From: Sphingobacterium sp. GVS05A
GTDB lineage: Bacteria > Bacteroidota > Bacteroidia > Sphingobacteriales > Sphingobacteriaceae
DNA length: 64,000 nt
NCBI RefSeq assembly: GCF_019969845.1
Contig: NZ_JAHXYR010000003.1
Location: 248,001-312,000 of the forward strand
Reading direction: 5' to 3'
Each line of letters begins with the position of its first letter. The first letter of the stretch is position 1. The notes under the pieces were generated by a model. The model was given only the letters and a program-made list of their open reading frames with translations. It made no database searches and had not been told where the DNA came from. Positions 13,225 to 27,129 of this stretch are shown here, piece after piece. A program made the translations under genes and the position numbers.

Positions 13225-13451
13225 ATTAGGGTGCGGTTAGGGTAAAGATGTGCGTTATTATGCTTTATTGTGAGTGTTTTTTTTATAACCATGTTTAATG
13301 GGAATGTTTTTTGAAAAGATATATTTGAGGTGTTTTTGTTTATGAAAACGTCTTTTTTCTTGTTTTTTAGTCGAATATAGGGCTTTTTAATCTTGAAGGC
13401 TTGGGTAGGATACTTAGTGTGCACTTACTTTATTTTGCGTTTTTTAATTTG

Positions 13452-13470
13452 TTTCGTTTATAAAACGAAA
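13452..13470. repeat. inverted repeat TTTCGTTT/AAACGAAA
   Basis: Perfect 8-bp arms flank the centre ATA, about 80 bp upstream of the namZ start. A related imperfect copy, GTTTATGAAAACG, lies about 115 bp further upstream. This may be a second operator for the namZ unit. The function is inferred from position only. Confidence 0.4.
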
Positions 13471-13505
13471 AAATCTACTTACTTTTATCCTGATTTTCAA
13501 TTATT

Positions 13506-13532
13506 CATGCATAAAACTGCATTTTATGCATG
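13506..13532. promoter_or_regulatory. 27-bp palindromic operator candidate upstream of namZ
   Basis: Two perfect 11-bp arms (CATGCATAAAA and TTTTATGCATG) flank the centre CTGCA, 17 bp before the first in-frame ATG of the lipoprotein start. Each arm contains GCATAAAA, the half-site also seen upstream of susC 2 and the metallophosphoesterase gene, and in a variant form upstream of susC 1. The symmetry and position suggest a dimeric repressor site. No regulator in this window is an obvious owner. Confidence 0.55.
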
Positions 13533-13551
13533 GTCTAATGGTCTATTTATG

Positions 13552-14793
13552 ATGAAACATACCTTACTAAAATTAACCTTCGTGGTCTCTCTTTTCTCCC
13601 TGGCTTCTTCTTGTGGTTATGCGCGAAGAACCGTTGTCCTGAATGAAACGAATGCTATGGATGATGTAAAAGGGAGTGTCGGTACTACTATTCCTGGGGC
13701 GGATCAATTGTCGCTGTATTTGCCGCAACTAAAAGGCAAAAAAGTCGGTATTATGGGGAATCAAACTTCCATTGTAGGGGACGATAAAAAGCATTTAGTG
13801 GATGTGTTGCTTGAAAATAAAGTAGATCTGAAGTTTGCTTTCGCTCCGGAACATGGTTTTCGTGGGAATGTTGAACGTGGAGAGAAATTTGGAAACGATA
13901 TTGATCAAAAAACTGGATTACCTTTATTTACTCTTTACGGCGGTAATAAAAAACAAGATTCGATTGTCAATTCCATCGATGTGATGATTTTTGACTTACA
14001 GGATGTGGGAGCACGCTTCTATACGTACATTACTTCTTTACACCGTGTCATGGAATTATGTGCGAAGCACAATAAGAAACTTATTGTTTTGGATCGCCCT
14101 AATCCAAACGGAGATCAGGTAGATGGGCCCGTGCGCCATGATGATAAATTTAAGTCAGATGTTTCCTGGCATAAAATTGCCATGATTCATGGATTGACCA
14201 TTGGTGAACTCGCGCAGATGATCAATGGTGAGAAATGGCTGGAGAATGGGCGCCAGGCTGATGTGCAAGTTGTAAAAGTGCAAAACTGGAATCACAAGAA
14301 GATGTATGATCTGCCTGTTATTCCATCGCCAAGCTTACCCAATCAGCTTTCGGTACGCTTATATCTCTCCCTCTGTTTGTTTGAGGGTACAGATATTTCG
14401 GTAGGTCGCGGTACAGACTGGCCCTTTCAGGTGTTGGGATATACAAATCCTGTTTATGGATCTTTTACGTTTACTCCAGGTGAGCGTCATGGTATGTCAA
14501 AGCATGTAGAGGGAAAAGGCGCTATGAATTATGGTATCGACCTACGTAGCCTGAATCCTGATAAACAAAAATTTACACTAAAATACTTGCTGGATTTTTA
14601 TAATAAAACACCGGATAAGACTACGTTTTTTGCTCGGCCAGAATTTTTTGATAAGCTAGCTGGGACAGATCAATTGCGCAAACAAATTATGGACGGAGAA
14701 TCCGAGGGGCAGATTCGCGCTTCTTGGGCTGCAGACTTGAAGGTTTACAAGCAAATGCGTAAAAAGTACCTGTTGTATAGCGATTTTGAATAA
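13552..14793 (+). CDS. namZ: NamZ-type exo-beta-N-acetylmuramidase (GH171, DUF1343), lipoprotein
   Basis: From the ATG at 13552 (13549 is also possible) this is a protein of about 414 residues with a leader and lipobox Cys21 (SLASSC). Starts further upstream would place the operator palindrome inside the gene and spoil the signal peptide. DUF1343 motifs are clear: KKVGIMGNQTS, FAPEHGFRGN, IFDLQDVGARFYTYI, VLDRPNPNG, and SVGRGTDWPFQV further on. Known NamZ enzymes remove terminal MurNAc from the non-reducing end of peptidoglycan fragments. Here it leads an operon with SusCD pair 3 (70 bp to susC) and lies upstream of MurQ and a symporter, which supports MurNAc release as its job. Confidence 0.88.
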   Translation: MKHTLLKLTFVVSLFSLASSCGYARRTVVLNETNAMDDVKGSVGTTIPGADQLSLYLPQLKGKKVGIMGNQTSIVGDDKKHLVDVLLENKVDLKFAFAPEHGFRGNVERGEKFGNDIDQKTGLPLFTLYGGNKKQDSIVNSIDVMIFDLQDVGARFYTYITSLHRVMELCAKHNKKLIVLDRPNPNGDQVDGPVRHDDKFKSDVSWHKIAMIHGLTIGELAQMINGEKWLENGRQADVQVVKVQNWNHKKMYDLPVIPSPSLPNQLSVRLYLSLCLFEGTDISVGRGTDWPFQVLGYTNPVYGSFTFTPGERHGMSKHVEGKGAMNYGIDLRSLNPDKQKFTLKYLLDFYNKTPDKTTFFARPEFFDKLAGTDQLRKQIMDGESEGQIRASWAADLKVYKQMRKKYLLYSDFE

Positions 14794-14863: not shown

Positions 14864-17800
14864 ATGAGAAAATTTGTACTATTTTCTGTTGCTCTTGGAT
14901 TGAGTTTTCCTTCTGAATCCTATTCTTTCGTAAAGAAAGAGGGCGCTTTGAGCAGTGCTAACTTGACAAGTGCTCTTCTTCGCTCTTCATCGAAGACTTC
15001 GGTTCAAAATACGGTGCAAGGTACTGTAACGGATGGAAAAGGCCCAGTCTCAGAAGTAAGCGTTTCTGTCATTGGCGGGACCGCGTCTACTAAAACCGAT
15101 GCACAGGGGCATTTCAAGATTACAGCCGCTGTGGGAAGTAAGCTGCGTTTTTCATCCATTGGGTATGTTGCGCAAGATGTTACTGTTATGTCAAATACAG
15201 TTAATGTGACGTTGGTGGATGATAATCAATCCTTGGAAGAGGTTGTTGTTGTCGGTTATGGTACACAAAAGAAAGGTAATTTGACAGGAGCAGTTGCTTC
15301 TATAAATATTAAAGAGACGATGCAGGGGCGGCCAATTGCCGACGCTGGTCGTGCAATGCAAGGGAGTACGCCAGGTTTGAGTGTTACTATACCTAATGGC
15401 GAGGTTGGATCTGATCCGACAATTAAGATTCGGGGACAAATAGGATCTATTAATGGATCTAGCAATCCATTGATCTTATTGGATAATGTTGAAATCCCAA
15501 GCATTAATGTTGTCAATCCTGATGATATTGAGTCAATTACTGTTTTAAAAGATGCTGCTGCTTCTTCTATTTATGGTGCTAAGGCGGCATTTGGTGTTGT
15601 TCTGATAACGACTAAGCAGGGGGCTAAAACGGAAAGTAATACAATCAGTTATTCCAATAATTTCTCTTTTCAGAATCCATTCAAGAAATATGAAATGGGG
15701 ACAGTGGATGCTTTGAGGTATTCGTTGGATGCTGGAAAACGAGAAGGAAACAATTTTGTTGGGGCTTTCTATAAAATCAACGAAGAGAGCTACAAGAGAG
15801 CTGTCGAATGGCAGGAAAAGTATGGCGGTTCTATTGGTAAAGACGATCCAACCTTGTATGAGCGTGACTGGTATTTTGATCCTGCTACAGGATATAAATA
15901 TGGTGTCAGGACTTACGATCCATTTGATTATATGATTCGTGAATGGGCTCCGACACAGCAGCATAATCTGTCACTGTCAGGGAAGACTGGTAAAACAGGT
16001 TATAACGTTGGGTTGGGGATGCTCGATCAGTCCGGTATGTTAAAAACCAATACAGATCAATTCTCGCGTTACAATGCGTCAGTAAGAGTTACAAGTGAAT
16101 TAAACAAGTATATTACAGCGCGTGCAGGTGCCATCTATTCTCGGACGAATAAACAGTATCCTTATGCAACAAATTCAACCACGGCCGATCCGTGGCTTTA
16201 TATGTATCGATGGAGTTCATTGTATCCGTACGGAAATGATGGTGACGGCGATCCGATCCGTAGCCCTGCCTATGAGACTGGGGCGGCAAATGTTGCCAGT
16301 CAAGTGAAGAATTACATGAATTTTAATGCCGGTGCTACAGTAAACTTTATGGAAAACTGGAAGCTTGATTTTGATTATACGTTGTCAAATCAAGAAATGC
16401 TCTGGAACCAGCCGGGAACTCGTTTTACTGCTGGTAATTCATGGGGTGCGCCAGTGAAAAAATTAGATGCTGCTGGCAATCAGAGATATGTGGATGGATC
16501 GGGTAACTATGTGGATGCTTCGGCTACAGGTGCTGTGCCAGCATATGATTTAGACTATTTTACATATACAGCATCCGGAGCTAATCCGGATCATTACCGC
16601 AGGGATAATTCAAATATTCTACGTCACACGATCAACGCTTTTACGACGTATAATTTAAATCTTGATGGTGGTCATGATTTTAAATTTATGTTAGGTCTAA
16701 ACCGTATCGCGGAGAAGACAGAAAATTCTTGGACTCAAGTTACTAAATTGCTAGATATTAAGAATCCGCAATTGACATTTGGTTCAGGAACTGTGACTGG
16801 ATCGGGTGCGAAATTTTGGGAATCACAAATAGGTTTCTTCGGTCGTGTGAATTATGCTTATAAAGATAAATATCTTTTTGAGGCTAATTTGCGTAGAGAT
16901 GGGTCTTCAAAATTCCCGACAAACTTAAGATGGAAGTGGTATCCATCGGTGTCCGCAGGATGGGTAGTGTCGCAAGAGTCTTTTATGGATTGGTCTAGTG
17001 ATTTTATGAACCAATTGAAAATCCGAGGATCTTGGGGTAGTATTGGGGATCAATCTGTTTCCAATGCGTTATACACAAGTTTTATGGAAAACTCGCAATC
17101 TACATGGATAGGCAATGCCGGTGATAGGAATTGGTTTGTCGGAACGCCGGCGGCGGTTTTATCTGCTATCGGTTGGCAAGATATTGCAACATTAGATGTT
17201 GGTTTTGATGCGCGTTTCTTTAAAAACAAACTGGGTTTTGTATTTGATTGGTATCAACGGGATACAAAGAATATGATTGTACCAATGGAGGGTGTTGCGC
17301 CAACATTTGGTTCTAAAGCTCCTATGGGTAATTTTGGAGCATTGCGCACTCGCGGATGGGAATTTGCTGTCGATTTTAATCATCGATTTGAGAATGGCTT
17401 AGGTATCAACTTGCGAGCTAACATTTCTGATGCGAAGTCTGTTATCACGGAATATGGAACCACAACGATTGTTACTGAAAACTATAGTGGTAAGACTTAT
17501 GGCGAAATTTGGGGATATGAAACAGATCGTTTATATCAAAATAGCGATTTCGTCTATAATGGAAATGACTTAGTTACCGCGGTTATAGATGGTAAGACAA
17601 TGAATAAGTTGTCGGATCCGAATGGAGCTTACCAAAGCTGGGTGCAAAATTCCGCGACATTCCGCTTTGGCCCAGGTGATGTTAAATTCAAGGACCTGAA
17701 CGGAGATGGTAAGATCGATAATGGTAAGAAAACATTGGCGGACCATGGTGATTTGAAAGTTATTGGTAATTCAACCCCGCGATATGAGTATGGCTTTAGA

Positions 17801-18319
17801 TTGGGAGCTGATTTTAAAGGATTTGATGTTTCGGCATTCTTTCAGGGTGTAGGTAGTAGACAAGTATGGGGGACAGGTTTCTTAGCGCAGGCGGGCTTTA
17901 ATTCTTCAGATGGTGCTATGCCAGCGGTAATGTCTTCAAACTACTGGACTAAAGATCGTACAGATGCGTTTTATCCGGCTCCTTTTAATAATGGTGGAAC
18001 AAATGATATCAATAATATGCAGATTCAAAGCCGTTATTTGCTAGATATGTCTTATCTGCGGGTGAAGAATCTGACGCTCGGTTATACGGTTCCGGCAGGT
18101 ACCTTAAAACGAATCGGTATCAGTAACCTTAGAGTTTACACTGCGTTGGAGAATTTCTTTACATGGGATAAGTTGAAGGGACTACCAATCGATCCGGAGG
18201 CTGTGGACGGTGTGAATATGTTTGTTGATGTGTTAAAAAATAATTACAACGGTGGTCGTACTGGAGTTGGAACGCCAACTTTTAAATCGGCATCAGTGGG
18301 TGTTCAATTAACATTCTAA
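14864..18319 (+). CDS. SusC/RagA-family TonB-linked outer-membrane receptor (pair 3)
   Basis: This 1151-residue receptor is the largest of the complete ones here. After a leader (about 1-20) and an unusual serine-rich stretch (21-48), the carboxypeptidase-regulatory-like domain spans about 50-118, followed by the canonical EEVVVVGYGT (125-134), a plug with TVLKDAAASSIYGAKAAFGVVLITTK, and the barrel ending in SVGVQLTF. FKDLNGDGKIDNG is the common SusC extracellular calcium-loop-like motif. It follows namZ by 70 bp and precedes susD 3 by 11 bp, so it probably imports products of NamZ action such as MurNAc or muropeptides. That specificity is inferred from context. Confidence 0.94.
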   Translation: MRKFVLFSVALGLSFPSESYSFVKKEGALSSANLTSALLRSSSKTSVQNTVQGTVTDGKGPVSEVSVSVIGGTASTKTDAQGHFKITAAVGSKLRFSSIGYVAQDVTVMSNTVNVTLVDDNQSLEEVVVVGYGTQKKGNLTGAVASINIKETMQGRPIADAGRAMQGSTPGLSVTIPNGEVGSDPTIKIRGQIGSINGSSNPLILLDNVEIPSINVVNPDDIESITVLKDAAASSIYGAKAAFGVVLITTKQGAKTESNTISYSNNFSFQNPFKKYEMGTVDALRYSLDAGKREGNNFVGAFYKINEESYKRAVEWQEKYGGSIGKDDPTLYERDWYFDPATGYKYGVRTYDPFDYMIREWAPTQQHNLSLSGKTGKTGYNVGLGMLDQSGMLKTNTDQFSRYNASVRVTSELNKYITARAGAIYSRTNKQYPYATNSTTADPWLYMYRWSSLYPYGNDGDGDPIRSPAYETGAANVASQVKNYMNFNAGATVNFMENWKLDFDYTLSNQEMLWNQPGTRFTAGNSWGAPVKKLDAAGNQRYVDGSGNYVDASATGAVPAYDLDYFTYTASGANPDHYRRDNSNILRHTINAFTTYNLNLDGGHDFKFMLGLNRIAEKTENSWTQVTKLLDIKNPQLTFGSGTVTGSGAKFWESQIGFFGRVNYAYKDKYLFEANLRRDGSSKFPTNLRWKWYPSVSAGWVVSQESFMDWSSDFMNQLKIRGSWGSIGDQSVSNALYTSFMENSQSTWIGNAGDRNWFVGTPAAVLSAIGWQDIATLDVGFDARFFKNKLGFVFDWYQRDTKNMIVPMEGVAPTFGSKAPMGNFGALRTRGWEFAVDFNHRFENGLGINLRANISDAKSVITEYGTTTIVTENYSGKTYGEIWGYETDRLYQNSDFVYNGNDLVTAVIDGKTMNKLSDPNGAYQSWVQNSATFRFGPGDVKFKDLNGDGKIDNGKKTLADHGDLKVIGNSTPRYEYGFRLGADFKGFDVSAFFQGVGSRQVWGTGFLAQAGFNSSDGAMPAVMSSNYWTKDRTDAFYPAPFNNGGTNDINNMQIQSRYLLDMSYLRVKNLTLGYTVPAGTLKRIGISNLRVYTALENFFTWDKLKGLPIDPEAVDGVNMFVDVLKNNYNGGRTGVGTPTFKSASVGVQLTF

Positions 18320-18330
18320 TTGAAATTATC

Positions 18331-20175
18331 ATGAAAATAAAAGCAAAATTTATATATATATTATTAGGGGTTTCAATGGGACTGACAGGTTGTAATAGTT
18401 TGTTGGATCGCCCAGCCCTGGATAAAATTACAGACGGACAAGGTCTTTACTGGCGGGATGAAAATGATCTCAGGCTGTTTGCGAATGGATTTTATACGCA
18501 GTATTTCAATGGTTATAATAGTTCCTATACAACGGATTATACGCCAGTTAGGGGATATACCTTTTCTGATGATTTGACTTTTAGTGGTCAGCAGACTAGT
18601 TTTGAAAACTCTATTCCAGATTCGAGATATTCTGTTGCTGAAGCTGGTGATTGGTTGAGTGGTTATGCAGGACCGACCTGGAATTTTTCCTGGGTACGTA
18701 AGTCTAATATTTTCTTAGACCGTCTAGAGAATATGGCTAAGCCTAATTTGACACCTGAGCAGTATAATCATTGGACTGCCGTGGCTCGTTTTTTCAAAGG
18801 ATTTGAATATGCGCGCTTGGTTTCTGTGTTTGGTGATGTGCCTTATTTTGAGAAAGAAATACCTGCGGCTGATTTTGATACTCAGTATAAAGATCGTACG
18901 AATCGTGGCGAAGTAATGGATCACGTGTATGATGACTTTGTATTTGTGTTACAAAATATGCGTAATGATGACGGGGTAAATGTCCTGAATAAATATGTGG
19001 CAGCTTCTTTTATTTCGCGTTTGATGCTATTTGAAGGGTCTTGGCAAAAATACCATGGTTTGGATCAGGCTAAAGCAAAAAAATATTTGGAATTGGCGCA
19101 AAGTGCTGCAGAGATTGTGATGAATTCTGGTAAATTTTCCTTTGGTTCTGATTTTAAAAGCTTGTTTTCTTCACAAGACTTGAATAGCAACAAGGAGGTT
19201 ATCCTTTATCGCAAGTATGACGCTTCTGTTAATGTGTTTCACGCAATCGGTTCTTATCAAAATGGCATAGAGGCACAGGCGGCAGCTCCAAACTTGAAGC
19301 TGATCAAGGAGTTTATTTGTGTTGATGGCAAGCCATTTGCTTCATCTACTGTAGAAAATGTCTCGGATTTTTCCCTAGCAAATTTGGCAAAAACGCGCGA
19401 TCCGCGGTTTGAGGCTTCATTTGATACTGATCTAAACTCGAAGGCTTCCACTTTTGTTTATGGAACGAAGTATGTTGCACGAAATGGATATAAAATTCCA
19501 AGCGCAAACCCGGATTATTCAAAATGGAATTCCAATACAAATACTTCTGATGCTCCTGTTATCCGATATGCGGAAGTCGTGTTAAACTGGTTGGAGGCAA
19601 AGCAGATTTTGGCAGAATTCTTTGGGGGAGCTGCTGTTGGCCAGTCGGATATAGATAAGTCAATTAATGCGATTCGTAGCAGGCCTTTGGATGAAATAGC
19701 AGTAGCAAGAGGGGTGAAGAAAACGGCAGCGCTTCAATTAGGGGCTATCGCGAATGATCCTTTGCGTGATGGAGATGTATCGCCCTTGATGTGGGAGATC
19801 CGTCGTGAACGTCGCATGGAGTTTGTTTTTGAGTATTCACGTTTAATGGATCTTAGAAGATGGAAGAAACTGAATTATATGGATTTTTCCAAAAATACTG
19901 ATTACTTTACGGGTATCTGGGTTGATGTGGCAAAACAAGCTCCAGATTTTTTGAAAGCAAATTATATTAATGTTACCAAAGTTAGAAAGGCGGATGGTAC
20001 TATTGTGACTTACAATGGCTCAAATGCTGCTGAAATGGTTGGTTTTATTGTCGTACAAAATGCTTCAAACAGAAATGCGATAATGGATAAGAATTATCTG
20101 GCTCCTGTTGGTCAGGCGCAAATGGTCGAATATGAGCAGCGCGGTTATAAACTGACCCAAACAAAGGGCTGGTAA
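18331..20175 (+). CDS. RagB/SusD-family nutrient uptake lipoprotein (pair 3)
   Basis: This 614-residue lipoprotein has lipobox Cys21 (MGLTGCN) followed by SLLDRPALDKITDG. It belongs to the classical RagB/SusD branch: ARFFKGFEYARLVSVFGDVPYFEKE, VIRYAEVVLNWLEAK and the RRERRMEFVFEYSRLMDLRRWKKL helix are all diagnostic. It should be the outer-leaflet binding partner of the upstream SusC. It differs from the SusD-like_2 proteins of pairs 1 and 2, so pair 3 has a separate ancestry. A strong terminator follows within 20 bp. Confidence 0.93.
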   Translation: MKIKAKFIYILLGVSMGLTGCNSLLDRPALDKITDGQGLYWRDENDLRLFANGFYTQYFNGYNSSYTTDYTPVRGYTFSDDLTFSGQQTSFENSIPDSRYSVAEAGDWLSGYAGPTWNFSWVRKSNIFLDRLENMAKPNLTPEQYNHWTAVARFFKGFEYARLVSVFGDVPYFEKEIPAADFDTQYKDRTNRGEVMDHVYDDFVFVLQNMRNDDGVNVLNKYVAASFISRLMLFEGSWQKYHGLDQAKAKKYLELAQSAAEIVMNSGKFSFGSDFKSLFSSQDLNSNKEVILYRKYDASVNVFHAIGSYQNGIEAQAAAPNLKLIKEFICVDGKPFASSTVENVSDFSLANLAKTRDPRFEASFDTDLNSKASTFVYGTKYVARNGYKIPSANPDYSKWNSNTNTSDAPVIRYAEVVLNWLEAKQILAEFFGGAAVGQSDIDKSINAIRSRPLDEIAVARGVKKTAALQLGAIANDPLRDGDVSPLMWEIRRERRMEFVFEYSRLMDLRRWKKLNYMDFSKNTDYFTGIWVDVAKQAPDFLKANYINVTKVRKADGTIVTYNGSNAAEMVGFIVVQNASNRNAIMDKNYLAPVGQAQMVEYEQRGYKLTQTKGW

Positions 20176-20235: not shown

Positions 20236-20263
20236 ATTGGAAAAGAAATAGGTAATATGTTTG
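20236..20263 (+). promoter_or_regulatory. possible promoter of the catabolic unit
   Basis: ATTG (20236-20239), a 16-nt spacer and TATGTTTG (20256-20263) fit the Bacteroidota promoter pattern with a short spacer. It lies between the upstream terminator and the direct repeats at 20282-20325, so a bound repressor would block elongation. The spacer is below the usual range, hence low confidence. Confidence 0.35.
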
Positions 20264-20278
20264 TTGTATCAAAAATAT

Positions 20279-20325
20279 CATGCATAAAAACGCATTTATG
20301 TTTTATGTTTACGCATAAAAACGCT
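20279..20325 (+). promoter_or_regulatory. tandem operator half-sites GCATAAAAACGC
   Basis: GCATAAAAACGC occurs exactly at 20282-20293 and 20313-20324, 31 bp apart (about three helical turns), just before the metallophosphoesterase start at 20347. The first copy sits in an imperfect palindrome starting CATGCATAAA, like the namZ palindrome, and ending TTTATG. The same 12-mer is present inverted in the susC 2 promoter. Confidence 0.55.
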
Positions 20326-20346
20326 ATTTTTAAGAAAACTTTATCC

Positions 20347-22203
20347 ATGAAACCGAAGCTTAAAGCCTTAATTATTGCATTATTGTGCATTATCAATGTG
20401 TCCTTTGCGCAGTCTTTTAAATTTGCCCATGTCACGGATACACATGTCGGTGGTGCAACAGGGGAGGAAGATCTGCGACGTACTGTAAAGGATCTTAATA
20501 CATTGAAAGACATCGATTTTGTTATACTCTCAGGAGATATCACTGAATTTGGGGCTGATCAGGAATTGAAATTGGCAAAGCGGATTTTGGATAGCCTGCA
20601 GCTGCCCTGGTACGTTATTCCAGGTAACCACGATGGGAATTGGTCTGAAAACGGCGCCAATACTTTTCGTACTGTCTTTGGTGGGGAGACTTTTTTCTTT
20701 AAACATAAGGGCTATGAATTTATTGGAACAAACTCTGGTCCGAATATGCGGATGAGTCCTGGGCAGATACCACGAGAAAATCTGGTGTGGATGGATTCCA
20801 TCTTTGCTGCGAACCCTGACAGGCAAACACCGCTAATTTATATTAATCATTACCCACAAGACTCTTCCCTGAACAATTGGTTTGATGCATTGAAGCGTGT
20901 TAAAACACGCAATGTACAATTGGCTTTCTGTGGCCATGGACATGCTAACAAAGCGTATGACTGGGAGGGGATTCCGGGTGTAATGGGGCGATCCAATCTA
21001 CGTGCAAATAAAGCTGTCGGTGGTTATAATATTGTGACCATCGGTGATGGAAAGGCCTCTTATCAGGAGCGTAATCCGGAAATTGGTACACAAGAAAAAC
21101 CTTGGTTAGAAGTGCCTTTGTTTGATCATCACTATGACCGCGAAACTGCGACTTATCCACGGCCGAGTTATGCGGTCAATGAAAAGTATGCAAGTGCTGT
21201 TCATGTAAATTGGACTTTTGAAGATGCGAGCGATATTGGTGCAGGGCTGACAATCTATAAAAATAAGGTTGTTACCTCCAATACCGCGGGCGATATCTTT
21301 GCGCTGGATCTTAAATCCGGTAAAAAACTTTGGGCTTACAGGACGGGAGGGAAAGTGTACTCTACGCCAGCGATTTGGAAAGGTATTGTTGTAGCCGGTT
21401 CTTCTGATCACTTTATATATGCTGTCAATGCGGAAAATGGAAAACTTCTCTGGAAGGTGCGGACAGATAAGGCAGTATTGGGCTCGCCACTGCTGCATGA
21501 TGGTGTCGCTTTTATCGGTGGTTCGGATGGTAAATTCAGGGCGTTGGATATAAAGACTGGTAAATTAAGATGGAGTTTTGATCAGGTCAAAGGGTTTGTA
21601 TCGACTTTGCCAACGTATTATTTGGGTAATGTCATCTTCGGTTCGTGGGGAAATGGATTTTATGCATTGGATGCTAAAACTGGAGAGCTATCCTGGGAAT
21701 GGAACAATGGTCACGCCAATCGGATGTTTTCGGCTGCCGCCTGCAATCCCGTTGGAGTAAATAATCGCGTATTTGTTGTAGCGCCGGATCGATTTATGAC
21801 TGCATTGGATGCAAAGAATGGTACTGTGGTCTGGCGAGAAAAGAAAGACCGCATACGTGTGCGGGAGTCTATGGGACTGGCTGTAAATAAAAAACAGGTT
21901 TACGTGAAGACAATGGATGGCGATTTGCTGGGGATTTCTTCTTCAGGTGAGAAAATGGACGTAATTTGGAAAGCAAAACTAAAATTGCCTTATGAATTGA
22001 CTCCCTCGGCGATAAAAACAAATCGTAAATTGGTGTTTGTGCCGAGTCATTCGGGTTTGCTTTCGGCTGTTGATGCAAAAACAGGCGATATAATGTGGCA
22101 ATATAAAATTTCCAATGGAATGGTCAATCCTGTTGCTGTAAACGGTAGTAATGAGGTTGTTGCAGGTACGATGGACGGTAAAATAGTTTCTTTGAGGTTT
22201 TAA
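20347..22203 (+). CDS. secreted calcineurin-like metallophosphoesterase with beta-propeller
   Basis: From the ATG at 20347 this is a 618-residue protein with a clear signal peptide (INVSFAQ). Starts further upstream would put the operator repeats inside the gene. The N-terminal half is a calcineurin-like phosphoesterase: HVTDTHVGG (DxH), ILSGDITEFG (GD), IPGNHDGNW (GNHD), INHYPQD and FCGHGHANKA (GHxH) supply the dinuclear metal site. From about residue 290 to the end it is a PQQ-type beta-propeller (AGDIFALDLKSGKKLWAYRT, ENGKLLWKVRT, KTGELSWEW and similar blades). It begins the GH9-NodB-MurQ-symporter operon, so a phosphoesterase acting on cell-wall or amino-sugar phosphates is plausible but unproved. 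Confidence 0.85.
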   Translation: MKPKLKALIIALLCIINVSFAQSFKFAHVTDTHVGGATGEEDLRRTVKDLNTLKDIDFVILSGDITEFGADQELKLAKRILDSLQLPWYVIPGNHDGNWSENGANTFRTVFGGETFFFKHKGYEFIGTNSGPNMRMSPGQIPRENLVWMDSIFAANPDRQTPLIYINHYPQDSSLNNWFDALKRVKTRNVQLAFCGHGHANKAYDWEGIPGVMGRSNLRANKAVGGYNIVTIGDGKASYQERNPEIGTQEKPWLEVPLFDHHYDRETATYPRPSYAVNEKYASAVHVNWTFEDASDIGAGLTIYKNKVVTSNTAGDIFALDLKSGKKLWAYRTGGKVYSTPAIWKGIVVAGSSDHFIYAVNAENGKLLWKVRTDKAVLGSPLLHDGVAFIGGSDGKFRALDIKTGKLRWSFDQVKGFVSTLPTYYLGNVIFGSWGNGFYALDAKTGELSWEWNNGHANRMFSAAACNPVGVNNRVFVVAPDRFMTALDAKNGTVVWREKKDRIRVRESMGLAVNKKQVYVKTMDGDLLGISSSGEKMDVIWKAKLKLPYELTPSAIKTNRKLVFVPSHSGLLSAVDAKTGDIMWQYKISNGMVNPVAVNGSNEVVAGTMDGKIVSLRF

Positions 22204-22245: not shown

Positions 22246-24072
22246 ATGATAAAAGAATGTCTAAACTTCTTAAATTTACGTCAAGCTTTTTTGCTTGTTT
22301 TTGCATGTTTTGTTTGTAACTTTGCGGAAGCACAGCAAAATGCTTGGATTCGAATAAACCAATTAGGCTATACACCGGCAGGTAAAAAGGTCGCGGTATG
22401 GGGCGGGAAATCAATCAGGCAGCTTCGTTCTTTTGAGGTTAAAGATGCAAAGACAGGTAAGACAGTGTATGCTCATTCCGTAGGGAAAGATTATGGTGTT
22501 TACGGCCCTTTTGTGCAGAGTTTTCGATTCGATTTCTCAGCTTTACAGGATACGGGAAGTTTTTTTATCCAGTTGGGAGAAATCAAATCTCCTCATTTTA
22601 GGATTGCCCGAGATGTCTATAAGGGTGCAGCGGACTTTGTATTGCGATATATGCGTCAACAACGAACATTGTTCAATCCCTTTTTAAAAGACAGTTGTCA
22701 TACGCACGATGGTTTTACATTGTATGCAGGTAAAGTGGGTGTAGCAGATAGCTCGCATATTGATGCTGGCGGAGGTTGGCATGATGCTTCTGATTATTTG
22801 CAATACGCGACGACTTCGGCAAATGCAACATTTCATCTGCTGGCGGCTTATCGGGACTTTCCTAAGGTGTTTGCAGATCAAAAGCAGGCAAATGGTCTGG
22901 ACGGGAAGAACGGCCGTGCTGATATATTGGATGAAGCTAAATGGGGACTGGACTGGTTGTTGAAGATGCATCCCAAAGCAAATCAGATGTATAATCAGAT
23001 TGCGGATGACCGAGATCATGCAAGTATGCGCATGCCCAAGGAGGACCCTTATTATGGTCGTGGATTTGAACGCCCAGTGTATTTCATAGATGGCGAGCCG
23101 CAACAAAGGGGCAAGTTTATGAATAACACGACCGGAACAAGTTCTACAGCAGGGAAATTTAGCAGTGCTTTCCGTTTGGGATCTGTGCTTTTTGGAAAAG
23201 AGGATAAAAAATATACAAAATTGCTGTCACAGAAAGCGGAGACAGCCTATGCGTATGCAAATATAAAACCCGGGGTGACACAGACGGTTTCGGTCAAATC
23301 ACCTTATATCTATGCCGAAGACAATTGGGTGGATGATATGCAGCTGGCAGCGGCAATGGGACTTTCGGTAACAAGGAAAAACAAGTTCGCCGAAGAAGCT
23401 ATGCAGTATGCCAGACAAGAAAAAGTAACACCCTGGATGATAACAGATACTGCTGCACATTATCAGTGGTATCCTTTTATCAACTTGGGACATTATGAAT
23501 TGGCAAAAAAATTGAAAGGACAGGATCGCGAGGAGATTGTTTCATATTATAGACAAGGTATTGAAGAGGTCAATAAACGTGCGGAGCAAAATGCATTTTT
23601 AAGAGGGGTTCCTTTTATCTGGTGCAGTAACAATCTAACGGCTTCTTTCGCAATGCAATGCCTTTGGTATAAAGAGCTGACAGGGGATAATCGGTTTGAT
23701 GAACTGGAGCAGGCAAATTTCGATTGGCTCTTTGGTGCCAATCCATGGGGAACAAGTATGGTCTATGGTCTTCCATCTTGGGGCGATACACCAGTTGATC
23801 CACATTCTGCTTTTACCTATTTGGGTAAACATCCGATTGATGGTGGCTTGGTAGATGGCCCAATAATGGCCTCTACTTATCGTAACCTGATCGGTATTAA
23901 ACTAAACAACCCTGATAGCTATGCGGACTTTCAGAGTGACCTGGCTGTCTACCATGATGATTATGGCGACTACAGTACCAATGAACCCACCATGGATGGA
24001 ACAGCTTCATTGATCTACTTGCTAGCGGCTAAAGAAGGAAAGGCATTGGAGGAGCCTGTTGGAAAAAAGTAA
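22246..24072 (+). CDS. glycoside hydrolase family 9 enzyme with N-terminal Ig-like domain
   Basis: This 608-residue protein has a signal peptide (about 1-29, NFAEAQ) and a CelD_N-type Ig-like domain (WIRINQLGYTPAGKKVAVWG to about 120). The GH9 (alpha/alpha)6 domain follows. HDASDY (His179 to Asp183) holds the catalytic-base aspartates, and YSTNEPTMDG carries the probable acid Glu580. GH9 includes endoglucanases and also exo-glucosaminidases; beside MurQ an amino-sugar substrate is more likely than cellulose, by context. The frame ends GKK-stop exactly at an A AAA AAG heptamer, with the NodB-like frame open in -1, so the true product may be a larger fusion. Confidence 0.88.
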   Translation: MIKECLNFLNLRQAFLLVFACFVCNFAEAQQNAWIRINQLGYTPAGKKVAVWGGKSIRQLRSFEVKDAKTGKTVYAHSVGKDYGVYGPFVQSFRFDFSALQDTGSFFIQLGEIKSPHFRIARDVYKGAADFVLRYMRQQRTLFNPFLKDSCHTHDGFTLYAGKVGVADSSHIDAGGGWHDASDYLQYATTSANATFHLLAAYRDFPKVFADQKQANGLDGKNGRADILDEAKWGLDWLLKMHPKANQMYNQIADDRDHASMRMPKEDPYYGRGFERPVYFIDGEPQQRGKFMNNTTGTSSTAGKFSSAFRLGSVLFGKEDKKYTKLLSQKAETAYAYANIKPGVTQTVSVKSPYIYAEDNWVDDMQLAAAMGLSVTRKNKFAEEAMQYARQEKVTPWMITDTAAHYQWYPFINLGHYELAKKLKGQDREEIVSYYRQGIEEVNKRAEQNAFLRGVPFIWCSNNLTASFAMQCLWYKELTGDNRFDELEQANFDWLFGANPWGTSMVYGLPSWGDTPVDPHSAFTYLGKHPIDGGLVDGPIMASTYRNLIGIKLNNPDSYADFQSDLAVYHDDYGDYSTNEPTMDGTASLIYLLAAKEGKALEEPVGKK

Positions 24073-24116
24073 TCAGGGATGTTTTTGGTGCTGTTGTCCG
24101 TGGCGATTCGACAACA
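24048..24116 (+). promoter_or_regulatory. candidate -1 programmed frameshift signal
   Basis: The heptamer A AAA AAG (24063-24069) is in the GH9 reading frame and is followed at once by its stop TAA (24070-24072). A -1 slip would continue as VIRDVFGAVVRGDS into the NodB-like domain, giving about 840 residues. An SD-like GGAGGAG (24048-24054) lies 8 nt upstream, as at E. coli dnaX. A 7-bp stem, TGTTGTC/GACAACA (24092-24098 and 24110-24116), lies 22 nt downstream, farther than usual. A simple indel in the A run would look the same. Confidence 0.4.
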
Positions 24117-24122
24117 AAAAAA

Positions 24123-24767
24123 GTGTCCTTACTTTTTACAGGACATGATTTGTCAGAAGGAACAGCGGTGGTTTTGAAAAGTTTGAAGCATCATCATGTG
24201 AAGGGGAATTTTTTCTTAACAGGAGATTATCTACGGAATGCAAGTTTCAAGCCTTATATCAGGCAGATGTTGAAAGACGGACATTTGGTATCAGGACATT
24301 CAGATAAGCATCTCCTGATCAGTGATTGGGGGAACCGGGATAAATTGCTGATCAGCCGGGATTCGTTCCTGCGGGATTTGAAGGCTAATTTGATTGAATT
24401 GGCGCTTTCGGGGGCGGATACAAGCAAGATAAATTATTATATTCCTTCTTATGAATGGTATAATAGCCAGACGGTAGCGTGGGCAGAAGAAGTAGGGTTG
24501 TCTTCAATCAATTATACACCCGGAATACGGACCGCTGCAGATTACACGTATCCCGAAATGGGGAAACGTTATCTGTCTTCTGCCGCAATTTTGGAAGGCC
24601 TTTGGTCTCATGAAGCGAAATCTGGCCTGAATGGTTTTATGGTACTAATCCATATGGGGACGGATGACAGACGTAAAGATAAACTATATCATCATTTGGA
24701 TGATATAATTAAGATATTAAAAAAGAAGGGGTATCAAATCGTGGATATTCCTAGTTTATTGAATTAA
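24123..24767 (+). CDS. NodB-like (polysaccharide deacetylase-fold) domain, start unclear
   Basis: The open frame runs from 24033 (after a stop at 24030) to 24767. The only standard start codon near the beginning is the GTG at 24123, giving 214 residues. VSLLFTGHDLSEGTAVVLKSL, then VKGNFFLTGDYLRN, DGHLVSGHSDKHLL and a late VLIHMGTDDR fit the NodB homology fold: Asp9 of TGHD, and the first and last His of HSDKH, as metal ligands. The codons before the GTG (RDVFGAVVRGDSTTKK) look like real protein, and the GTG would cut the first beta-strand. The domain therefore probably belongs to a GH9 fusion made by frameshifting, or to a broken gene. It is followed 21 bp later by murQ. Confidence 0.6.
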   Translation: MSLLFTGHDLSEGTAVVLKSLKHHHVKGNFFLTGDYLRNASFKPYIRQMLKDGHLVSGHSDKHLLISDWGNRDKLLISRDSFLRDLKANLIELALSGADTSKINYYIPSYEWYNSQTVAWAEEVGLSSINYTPGIRTAADYTYPEMGKRYLSSAAILEGLWSHEAKSGLNGFMVLIHMGTDDRRKDKLYHHLDDIIKILKKKGYQIVDIPSLLN

Positions 24768-24788: not shown

Positions 24789-25601
24789 ATGGTTAATACA
24801 ACGGAGAAAGATTCGAATTATCAGGATTTGGACAAGATGTCTGTACATGAGTTATTGACTAATATCAATAACGAGGATAAATCTGTGCCACTAGCTGTTG
24901 AAAGGTCTATTCCTCAGATCGAAGCATTGGTTAAGGTTACGGTAGAGAAAATGAAGGCTGGTGGTCGGACATTTTATATCGGAGCTGGTACAAGTGGTCG
25001 ACTGGGGGTTTTAGATGCATCTGAATTGCCTCCGACTTATGGTGTGCCATTTGAGTGGATCATTGGGTTAATTGCTGGTGGGGATACAGCGATCCGTAAA
25101 GCTGTGGAATTTGCTGAGGATGATCTGGAGCAGGCCTGGAAGGATATGGAAGCTTATGATATTGATGAGAATGATGTCGTGATCGGTATTGCCGCTTCGG
25201 GTACTACGCCTTACGTCATTGGTGGCTTGAAGACTGCAAACGAAAAAGGACTGATAACAGGTTGTATCGTTTGTAATGACGGTTCTCCGATTGCTGAAAT
25301 TGCACAATATCCTGTTGAGGTCATTGTAGGGCCAGAATTTGTGACGGGGTCTACCCGTATGAAGTCTGGTACAGCACAAAAGCTTGTATTAAATATGTTC
25401 AGTACCGCAGTAATGATTCAGCTGGGCCGCGTTAAGGGGAATAAAATGGTTGACATGCAATTGTCAAACCACAAATTGGTCGGCCGGGGTGTGCGCATTA
25501 TTATGGATCAGACTGGGGCAACTGAAGAGGATGCCGCAGCTTTGTTGGAACAATTTGGCAATGTAAGGCAAGCAATCGAAGCCTACCAGGCAACACATTA
25601 A
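24789..25601 (+). CDS. murQ: N-acetylmuramic acid 6-phosphate etherase
   Basis: This 270-residue SIS-domain enzyme splits the lactyl ether of MurNAc-6-phosphate, giving GlcNAc-6-phosphate and D-lactate in the cytoplasm. NNEDKSVPLAVERSIPQI, FYIGAGTSGRLGVLDASELPPTYG, GLIAGGDTAIRKAVEFAEDD, IAASGTTPYVIGGL and TGSTRMKSGTAQKLVLNM are near-identical to MurQ motifs. Glu79 (DASE) and Glu110 (EFAEDD) correspond to the two catalytic glutamates. It is shorter than E. coli MurQ at the C terminus. With a symporter 37 bp downstream and NamZ upstream, it makes MurNAc catabolism the best-supported function of the region. Confidence 0.96.
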   Translation: MVNTTEKDSNYQDLDKMSVHELLTNINNEDKSVPLAVERSIPQIEALVKVTVEKMKAGGRTFYIGAGTSGRLGVLDASELPPTYGVPFEWIIGLIAGGDTAIRKAVEFAEDDLEQAWKDMEAYDIDENDVVIGIAASGTTPYVIGGLKTANEKGLITGCIVCNDGSPIAEIAQYPVEVIVGPEFVTGSTRMKSGTAQKLVLNMFSTAVMIQLGRVKGNKMVDMQLSNHKLVGRGVRIIMDQTGATEEDAAALLEQFGNVRQAIEAYQATH

Positions 25602-25638: not shown

Positions 25639-27129
25639 ATGTCACCAGTTATATTATTATCCTTTATTGTGATCTATTTTGCGGTCTTACTCGCTGTAGC
25701 GCACTTCACTTCAAAAGGATCTTCCGACAACTCTACCTTCTTTGTCGCTAACCGAAATTCGAAATGGTATATGGTCGCTTTCGGGATGATCGGTACGGCG
25801 CTTTCCGGTGTAACTTTTATTTCTGTTCCCGGTGCTGTTGGCGCTTCGGAATTTAGCTATTTTCAATTTGTGCTAGGGAATGCTGTTGGCTTCATTATCA
25901 TCGCTTATGTATTGCTTCCGCTTTACTACCGGATGAACCTGACCTCCATCTACACCTATCTGGAAGAACGTTTTGGGCACACAACCTATAAAACCGGTGC
26001 CGCTATTTTTTTGATTTCCCGTACCATTGGTTCAGCCTTTCGTTTATACCTGGTTGCAATTGTCCTACAGCATTTTATTTTTGATGCCTGGAATGTGCCT
26101 TTTGCGATCACGGTAGTGATCTGTCTGGTGCTTATCTGGCTATATACCAATAAGGGGGGCTTAAAGACGATTATCGTAACAGATACCCTACAGACTACCT
26201 TTTTAGTGACTGCTGTTATTCTGTCGATCTATTTTATGGCGAAGGGATTGGACTTCGGGATCGTGGATACATTCGAAGCGGTTAAAGAAAGCAGCTATTC
26301 CAAAATCTTCTTCTGGGATGACTTTGTTGGCAGTAAAGCAAACTTTTGGAAACAATTCTTGGGTGGAATTTTTGTGACTATTGCCATGACGGGACTTGAT
26401 CAGGACCTGATGCAAAAGAATCTGTCTATGGGAACGATCAAAGAAGCGCAAAAGAATATGATTACCTTCACAAGCGTATTTGTGGTGATCAATATTTTCT
26501 TTTTGGCGGTGGGAGCCCTGCTGTATATCTATGCCGCCAAAAATGGTATTGATGTGTCACAACTGGCGACACGCGACTACCTCTATCCGGAGATTGCGTT
26601 GAACCACTTGGCGATCGTTCCGGCGATTATCTTTATGATGGGGCTGACTGCAGCGACATTTGCAACAACCGATAGTGCGCTTACAGCATTGACAACTTCG
26701 TTCTGTGTGGATTTCCTGAACTTCAATAAAAAGGAAAATCCCAATGATCCCGCTCTCATCAAACAGCGTAATTATGTTCATTTTGGTTTTTCGATTGTCA
26801 TGTTATTGGTGATACTCGTATTTAAGCTGATCAATGACGACTCAGTGGTGAATGCGATATTTACTGCGGCGAGCTATACCTATGGCCCATTGCTTGGATT
26901 GTTTGTTTTTGGGATCTTCACAAAATCTGCTGTCCGGGATAAGGCGGTGCCTTATATCTGTGTGCTTTCACCAACCATATTGTATTTACTGAAAACCTAT
27001 GTGATTGAGGTGTATACACCTTATGTGATCGGATTGGATCTGATTATCATCAATGGTTTTATCACTTTCCTGATGCTTTTGGTCAGTTCTCCAGGTAAGG
27101 CGAGTGAAAAGGCGCTTTCGCATAACTAA
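25639..27129 (+). CDS. sodium/solute symporter family transporter, MurNAc uptake candidate
   Basis: This 496-residue, very hydrophobic protein looks like a member of the SSS (SLC5-like) family with about 13 membrane segments. GMIGTALSGVTFISVPGAVG matches the first-helix signature, and GLTAATFATTDSALTALTTS the sodium-site helix near residue 345. It is the last gene of the unit that contains murQ (37 bp apart). As I recall, the MurNAc transporter MurT of Tannerella forsythia also sits beside murQ, so MurNAc import is the best guess; sialic acid or another sugar is possible. A 14-bp-arm inverted repeat follows 18 bp after the stop. Confidence 0.85.
   Translation: MSPVILLSFIVIYFAVLLAVAHFTSKGSSDNSTFFVANRNSKWYMVAFGMIGTALSGVTFISVPGAVGASEFSYFQFVLGNAVGFIIIAYVLLPLYYRMNLTSIYTYLEERFGHTTYKTGAAIFLISRTIGSAFRLYLVAIVLQHFIFDAWNVPFAITVVICLVLIWLYTNKGGLKTIIVTDTLQTTFLVTAVILSIYFMAKGLDFGIVDTFEAVKESSYSKIFFWDDFVGSKANFWKQFLGGIFVTIAMTGLDQDLMQKNLSMGTIKEAQKNMITFTSVFVVINIFFLAVGALLYIYAAKNGIDVSQLATRDYLYPEIALNHLAIVPAIIFMMGLTAATFATTDSALTALTTSFCVDFLNFNKKENPNDPALIKQRNYVHFGFSIVMLLVILVFKLINDDSVVNAIFTAASYTYGPLLGLFVFGIFTKSAVRDKAVPYICVLSPTILYLLKTYVIEVYTPYVIGLDLIIINGFITFLMLLVSSPGKASEKALSHN

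Follow-up and report, generated by a model that had tools for sequence, protein, structure and literature searches.

The window, a stretch of 64,000 nucleotides from Sphingobacterium sp. GVS05A (contig NZ_JAHXYR010000003.1, positions 248,001 to 312,000 of the forward strand), contains a gene for a glycoside hydrolase of family GH9 whose 3' end overlaps, in the -1 frame, an open frame for a NodB-like protein of carbohydrate esterase family 4 (CE4). The two frames meet at a slippery heptamer in front of the GH9 stop codon, and the analysis concerns this junction as a predicted site of programmed -1 ribosomal frameshifting. Its elements are the following:

22246..24072, forward strand: GH9 gene, an open frame with a 0-frame product of 608 aa, carrying a CelD_N Ig-like domain and a Glyco_hydro_9 domain.
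24048..24054, forward strand: Shine-Dalgarno (SD)-like GGAGGAG, 8 nt 5' of the heptamer, a predicted frameshift stimulator.
24063..24069, forward strand: slippery heptamer A AAA AAG in the GH9 phase (GGA AAA AAG), invariant in 29 loci of the genus.
24070..24072, forward strand: GH9 stop codon TAA, directly adjoining the heptamer.
24069..24121, forward strand: stretch from the last base of the heptamer to just before the first possible NodB start, evolving as -1-frame codons.
24069..24767, forward strand: NodB-like (CE4) frame entered by the -1 slip, from GTA to TAA (232 codons and the stop); PF01522 (Polysacc_deac_1), E 2.5e-8.
24123..24125, forward strand: GTG, the first ATG/GTG/TTG of the NodB frame; a start there falls inside a predicted core strand (model residues 19-26).

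The GH9 frame matched the Pfam families PF00759 (E 1.8e-65) and PF02927 (E 2.3e-18), and the Glyco_hydro_9 profile was covered over its full length (1-444 of 444), placing the product within GH9; its N-terminus was signal-like as judged by eye, not by a signal predictor. The gene ends with GGA AAA AAG TAA (24061-24072), and the open -1 frame spans 24033-24767 (244 codons), the predicted slip product having 608 + 232 = 840 residues. A sequence-only reading had described an in-phase heptamer abutting the GH9 stop, a -1 frame open from 24033 with no ATG, GTG or TTG before the GTG at 24123, and a GGAGGAG 8 nt upstream, and all of this held in the window. In the same genome the pattern GGAGG-N(5-13)-AAAAAAG had 40 matches, compared with 14 for the reversed control. 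Among the 30 of these 40 copies that were examined, only the window copy combined more than 150 nt of open 0 frame on the upstream side with more than 150 nt of open -1 frame on the downstream side, and a second candidate site was absent. Five near-identical copies of GGAGGGAAAC-A(7-8)-G were also noticed in this genome (C27:714498, C31:400747, C32:286, C32:377845 and C33:355042), two of them near contig ends and perhaps belonging to a repeated element; no long -1 frame followed the one copy checked (L280).

The comparison of relatives included 121 junctions, namely the window, 60 others of its genus and 60 from other genera of the family. A NodB relative was found in 62 of 93 genomes of the genus (E <= 1e-30) and in 109 of 301 genomes of the family sample (E <= 1e-15), the own genome and genus members being counted in both searches; seven non-genus matches (fused by open-frame length) and one partial genus match (G112) were left out of the 121, and the phase of G115, G107 and G088 was assigned separately from the script. 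A second set with named species (limited to 80 loci) overlaps with this unnamed set, making the counts non-additive. In a class-wide sample a relative appeared in 19 of 395 genomes (E <= 1e-25), seven of which belong to the family of the window.

The phase of NodB relative to GH9 was -1 in 66 of the 121 loci, while 54 were in-frame fusions, in one locus the genes lay apart and a +1 phase was never seen; the named set gave 39 loci in -1, 31 fused, ten with NodB but no adjacent GH9 motif, and again none in +1. An in-phase A AAA AAG (A6 type) was present in 52 of the 66 -1 loci, and the remaining 14, all from the genus of the window, had a run of exactly ten A (the A10 clade). The A6 loci span eight genus codes, with 29 in the genus of the window and 23 in g27, g28, g36, g37, g39, g43 and g44; three of the 52 sit in runs of 7 to 9 A, and in 49 the heptamer directly abuts the GH9 stop. 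This stop was TAA in 28 and TAG in 24 of the A6 loci and never TGA, and TAA in 25 and TAG in 12 of the 37 A6-type loci of the overlapping named set. The lack of TGA may reflect either the GTG that it would create in the -1 frame or avoidance of RF2. In L194 and L197 (Parapedobacter), G158 and G188 the GH9 frame measured 741 aa when a shorter stretch was read and 986 aa when a longer one was, so that a long N-terminal extension seems likely.

The named -1 loci (37 A6-type, two A10) extend the junction across two orders. All 15 Pontibacter loci, which belong to Cytophagales in contrast to Sphingobacterium of the Sphingobacteriales, had A AAA AAG abutting TAA or TAG and an SD energy of -10.2 to -11.2 kcal/mol. 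The others came from Sphingobacterium, Rhinopithecimicrobium, Parapedobacter, Arcticibacter, Pararcticibacter, one Pedobacter, metagenome-assembled genomes (MAGs) and Rufibacter, the last with nine A and a weak SD (-4.3). In a tree of the combined GH9 and NodB parts Pontibacter was placed next to Pararcticibacter and a Sphingobacteriales MAG (SH-aLRT 89), which suggests transfer of the whole device.

The constraint at the junction was followed in the 29 A6 loci of the genus by counting substitutions per codon position (Fitch steps). Third positions of GH9 between 600 and 61 nt before the stop accumulated 819 changes at 180 sites; no third-base change was seen in the heptamer's three codons, in either GAG of the SD-like element or in an AAG ten codons before the stop. 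Codons -3 to -1 formed the sole three-codon window of the last 560 codons free of third-position changes, a gapless register being assumed. Codon -3 encoded G, V, A, E or I in the genus, always with a third-base A, and in all 52 A6 loci the codon holding the first A of the heptamer was GGA, CCA, GCA, GTA, GAA, ATA, AGA or AAA, indicating that the residue is free and the third base is fixed.

An SD-like 5-mer ended 7-13 nt before the heptamer in 52 of 52 A6 loci, within the 6-17 nt range described for internal SD stimulators (PMC4066793), and was kept although the octapeptides encoded before the stop were of 36 different kinds. Pairing energies were computed against ACCUCCUUU as the anti-SD. 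The 16S 3' end pattern had no match in the own genome, and for this reason the anti-SD core CCUCC comes from the literature and not from this genome; a second pattern was found in 0 of 9 genomes, and a search in relatives gave one GGATCACCTCCTTT match, in 1 of 7. An energy of -8 kcal/mol or lower was reached in 51 of 52 A6 loci, 0 of 14 A10 loci and 2 of 52 placed fused loci (two of the 54 lacked a placed junction), as well as in 36 of the 37 named A6-type loci. The same threshold was passed by 2.5% of equal stretches of GH9 bodies and upstream of one of 40 ORF starts in the window (42 listed, two left out). Under synonymous shuffling the SD was stronger than expected (p < 0.05) in 8 of 18 loci from other genera and in 4 of 5 loci of g37; Fisher's method on the median p per genus gave 0.00015.

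Downstream of the heptamer, the Fitch steps in 24069-24121 were distributed over the -1-frame codon positions as 42 at 18, 35 at 18 and 88 at 17 sites in the 29 genus loci, and from this skew the stretch looks read as -1 codons, bearing out the view that the codons before the GTG are protein-like. In 40 of the 52 A6 loci the first 30 nt behind the heptamer contain no ATG, GTG or TTG in the NodB frame; in the other 12 they do. The -1 frame thus lacks a conserved start of its own, and a conserved start near the GH9 stop, of the kind used in translational coupling, was not found in the NodB frame of these loci.

An AlphaFold2 model of the NodB part, based on a 32-row alignment, had a mean pLDDT of 94.6 with the first 20 residues confident, and DSSP assigned strands to residues 10-12 and to 19-26, the latter being a core strand. 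The GTG corresponds to residue 20; in the model, a start at 24123 would therefore cut strand 19-26 and truncate the predicted CE4 fold. Foldseek with this model returned CE4 structures, a CE4 pseudoenzyme occupying the top three rows with PdaA close behind. By profile and fold the NodB part matched PdaA and other CE4 proteins, and it scored below all NCBIfam cutoffs. The first catalytic motif of classical CE4 enzymes is TFDD. In the NodB alignments (A2, A4) it reads FTGDE, or FTGHD in the window; the HxxxH and LLxH histidines are invariant. Given the deviating first motif and the pseudoenzyme in the top three Foldseek rows, deacetylase activity is possibly altered or lost.

A downstream RNA structure was seen in another lineage. 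In five g37 loci an SD 13 nt upstream was combined with a stem of 6 bp located 5 nt 3' of the heptamer, with a folding z of -2.97 for 30 nt. When two fused kin are added, pairing holds in 97.6% of the stem cells, and at two of the pairs both partners vary; of 500 shuffles, 9 scored as high for pairing and covariation. In the two fused kin the run is seven A long, yet SD and stem persist, as they would in a locked form of a frameshift gene. The code g37 probably stands for Pedobacter, since the junction of the named Pedobacter punctiformis locus is the same as that of G323. A downstream stem-loop, not universal among known cases, was thus confined in these data to the five g37 loci and their two fused kin. 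The stimulators appear to differ by lineage, with an SD but no conserved stem in the group of the window and an SD plus stem in g37.

A programmed -1 reading is supported by what different genera and two orders have in common, namely the heptamer, the SD-like element and the -1 phase, and by the -1 coding signature behind the GH9 stop. The best explanation, and a highly probable one, is a dnaX-type programmed -1 ribosomal frameshift at A AAA AAG, giving the 608-residue GH9 protein and a likely 840-residue GH9-CE4 fusion. Ribosomes keeping the 0 frame would meet the stop at once and release the short GH9 form. In the others the two lysyl-tRNAs would re-pair one base back and reading would continue via GTA to the fusion, which would be exported through the signal-like GH9 N-terminus. 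The efficiency of the slip would be raised by the abutting stop codon, acting as a slow A site, and by pairing of GGAGGAG with the anti-SD of the elongating ribosome. Other lineages have made the long product obligatory by in-frame fusion.

Several observations weigh against this explanation. The 7-bp stem that had been proposed 22 nt downstream is not supported in the group of the window, where the mean folding z of the 29 loci was only -0.23, -0.71 and -0.67 for 30, 50 and 80 nt; even the g37 stem had just -1.3 and -1.4 for 50 and 80 nt, and its count of doubly changed pairs was reached by 97 of 500 shuffles. In 10 of the 29 genus loci the NodB frame has a start-like codon ahead of position +52, counted from the GH9 stop. 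The anti-SD is hidden at initiation in Bacteroidota ribosomes (PMC9976891; PMC8710568), and within the genus the SD was significantly stronger (p < 0.05) than in synonymous shuffles in just 1 of 29 loci; the strength there is within synonymous chance, and the earlier caution that the element may act weakly was fair. When each of the seven other genera was represented by its largest p, and g1 by a value of 0.5 entered by hand, Fisher's method gave 0.017.

The history of the gene is a further difficulty. Continuous-frame relatives, which the sequence-only reading had named beforehand as refuting a frameshift, do exist (54 of 121), next to the 52 loci with two frames and a conserved heptamer. They were read as compatible with the frameshift on two grounds: the window's own clade, with 29 members, contains no fused gene, and in several cases a single A separates a fused gene from split relatives (G002 with A11 as opposed to G034 with A10; fused G329 and G271 with A7 in place of A6). 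Parsimony required 13 split/fused changes on the tree, with a fused root at equal costs (13 vs 15 steps) and a tie between split and fused when gain of the frameshift was costed three times its loss. It follows that A6 may have arisen several times; the sequences would fit either an old A6 device repeatedly locked or several origins with the same SD spacing. One fused g43 gene, G177 (L125), has eleven A and yet keeps an SD-like GGGAGG; either a frameshift gene was locked here recently or the assembly is in error.

These changes, and the fused relatives in several Bacteroidota genera, leave room for a variant in which the slip is real but merely tolerated as a 'saviour' repair of an old indel, only the fusion being needed and the short GH9 having no role. 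As a sub-case of the programmed frameshift it does not compete with it, and it was considered possible although somewhat doubtful, since SD and heptamer co-occur across genera, though a single inserted A would presumably remove the need for both.

Transcriptional slippage, in which RNA polymerase would add one A and bring part of the mRNA in frame with no ribosomal slip, is improbable for the window. Here the run has six A, short of the length (n > 7; PMC3711429) that marks programmed transcriptional realignment, and in the 52 A6-type loci the X XXY YYZ phase is retained along with an SD-like element, for which RNA polymerase has no need; slippage is less easily excluded in the three loci with runs of 7 to 9 A. 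For the 14 ten-A loci the same mechanism is plausible. They lack the SD-like element as well as a structure at the group level (mean z -0.68 to -0.83), and transcriptional slippage at dnaX has been described with runs of nine to ten A (PMC3711429); the A10 clade thus probably reaches the same fusion by slippage of RNA polymerase. In two of its members, G081 and G082, an inverted repeat CGACC...GGTCG lies right after the ten-A run and before the later 0-frame stop, with a fold predicted in G081 only.

Even less probable are two separate proteins, with NodB translated from an internal codon through reinitiation or coupling. Such a start would be available in the 12 A6 loci with an early start-like codon, and public records of Sphingobacterium (e.g. 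P0006, P0019, P0035) hold NodB as a separate 'polysaccharide deacetylase family protein', mostly of 211-217 aa among the closest (best 120 of 148 listed); 214-aa proteins match from about the GTG at 24123. Furthermore, eight of the ten named loci with NodB but no GH9 motif beside it have signal-like N-termini by eye; the window frame, by the same judgement, has none. Against this stand the 40 A6 loci with no early start-like codon, the predicted truncation of the fold by a start at 24123, the -1 codon pattern of the preceding stretch and the fact that NodB never occurs in +1 to GH9. Finally, the single-A differences between split and fused genes might point to an indel in the A run, as sequencing error or pseudogene (individual A7 and A11 cases could be assembly errors). 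For the A6 clade this is refuted: the junction recurs in 52 unnamed and 37 named loci (overlapping sets), single-contig genomes account for at least 11 of the 29 genus loci, and both frames keep codon-like substitution patterns.

The neighborhood of the junction within the window is composed as follows:

13393..14793, forward strand: NamZ exo-beta-N-acetylmuramidase (PF07075, PF20732).
14864..18319, forward strand: SusC (TIGR04056).
18331..20175, forward strand: SusD (PF07980).
20257..22203, forward strand: metallophosphoesterase with a PQQ-type beta-propeller (PF00149, PF13360; searched from 20344).
24789..25601, forward strand: murQ-like N-acetylmuramic acid (MurNAc) 6-phosphate etherase (NCBIfam NF003915, E 6e-114, above cutoff).
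25639..27129, forward strand: sodium:solute symporter (PF00474).

Upstream of the GH9 gene are an amidase (Amidase_2), a NAGPA-type phosphodiester glycosidase, NamZ, two SusC-type receptors and two SusD-type proteins, and the genes tested in 766-28014 also include a PNP-type phosphorylase. From its gene content this part of the window looks like a large peptidoglycan/MurNAc utilisation locus, and a MurQ motif was found in the flanks (up to 3 kb) of 23 of the 80 named loci. The fusion would tether a deacetylase-like CE4 domain to GH9, and both products would serve amino-sugar foraging.

If the frameshift is true, a chromosomal, non-mobile enzyme gene joins the few bacterial genes that use -1 frameshifting, and the annotation has to be corrected, the public records holding the deacetylase as a separate, N-terminally cut protein. 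With one gene joined in three ways, likely by a ribosomal slip with SD, by a ten-A run and by hard fusion, the family offers a natural experiment on gain and loss of recoding. Because the ribosomes of this phylum hide the anti-SD, the use of SD by elongating Bacteroidota ribosomes becomes directly testable here, beside prfB. A broader and rather unlikely proposal is a recoding switch across Bacteroidota, in which an SD ignored at initiation would be used inside genes during elongation to set the deacetylase dose on a glycan hydrolase, the ratio following the ribosome state (e.g. bS21 or anti-SD release), and which would have been re-invented as RNA-polymerase slippage in the sister clade. An earlier report of a GH9-NodB frameshift site was not found in the literature searched, which covered few subscription papers, and the main text of PMC3711429 names neither GH9 nor a deacetylase.

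Among known systems, the prfB +1 frameshift of Bacteroidia likewise uses an internal SD and is present in all Sphingobacteriales analysed in PMC8710568. It differs in shifting +1 at CUU UGA for RF2 autoregulation, in contrast to -1 at A AAA AAG in a carbohydrate-active enzyme. The PdaA-type CE4 deacetylases share profile and fold with the NodB part and differ from it in the first motif. The frameshift of the archaeal alpha-L-fucosidase reportedly joins parts of one enzyme, whereas here a different enzyme domain is added. That fucosidase is also a glycoside hydrolase expressed by -1 programmed frameshifting (PMC8037382). The -1 frameshift of E. coli copA similarly yields two products per gene (PMC5009743), its shifted product being the short one, unlike here. 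An identical A AAA AAG, likewise preceded by an internal SD, operates in dnaX (E. coli tau/gamma; Thermus A9), and other lineages use a long A run and transcriptional slippage for the same job (PMC3711429). In comparison with dnaX, a conserved downstream stem was not found in the group of the window, and the outcome of the shift is reversed: in E. coli dnaX it leads to the shorter product, whereas here it is the 0 frame that stops and the shift that would add a second enzyme.

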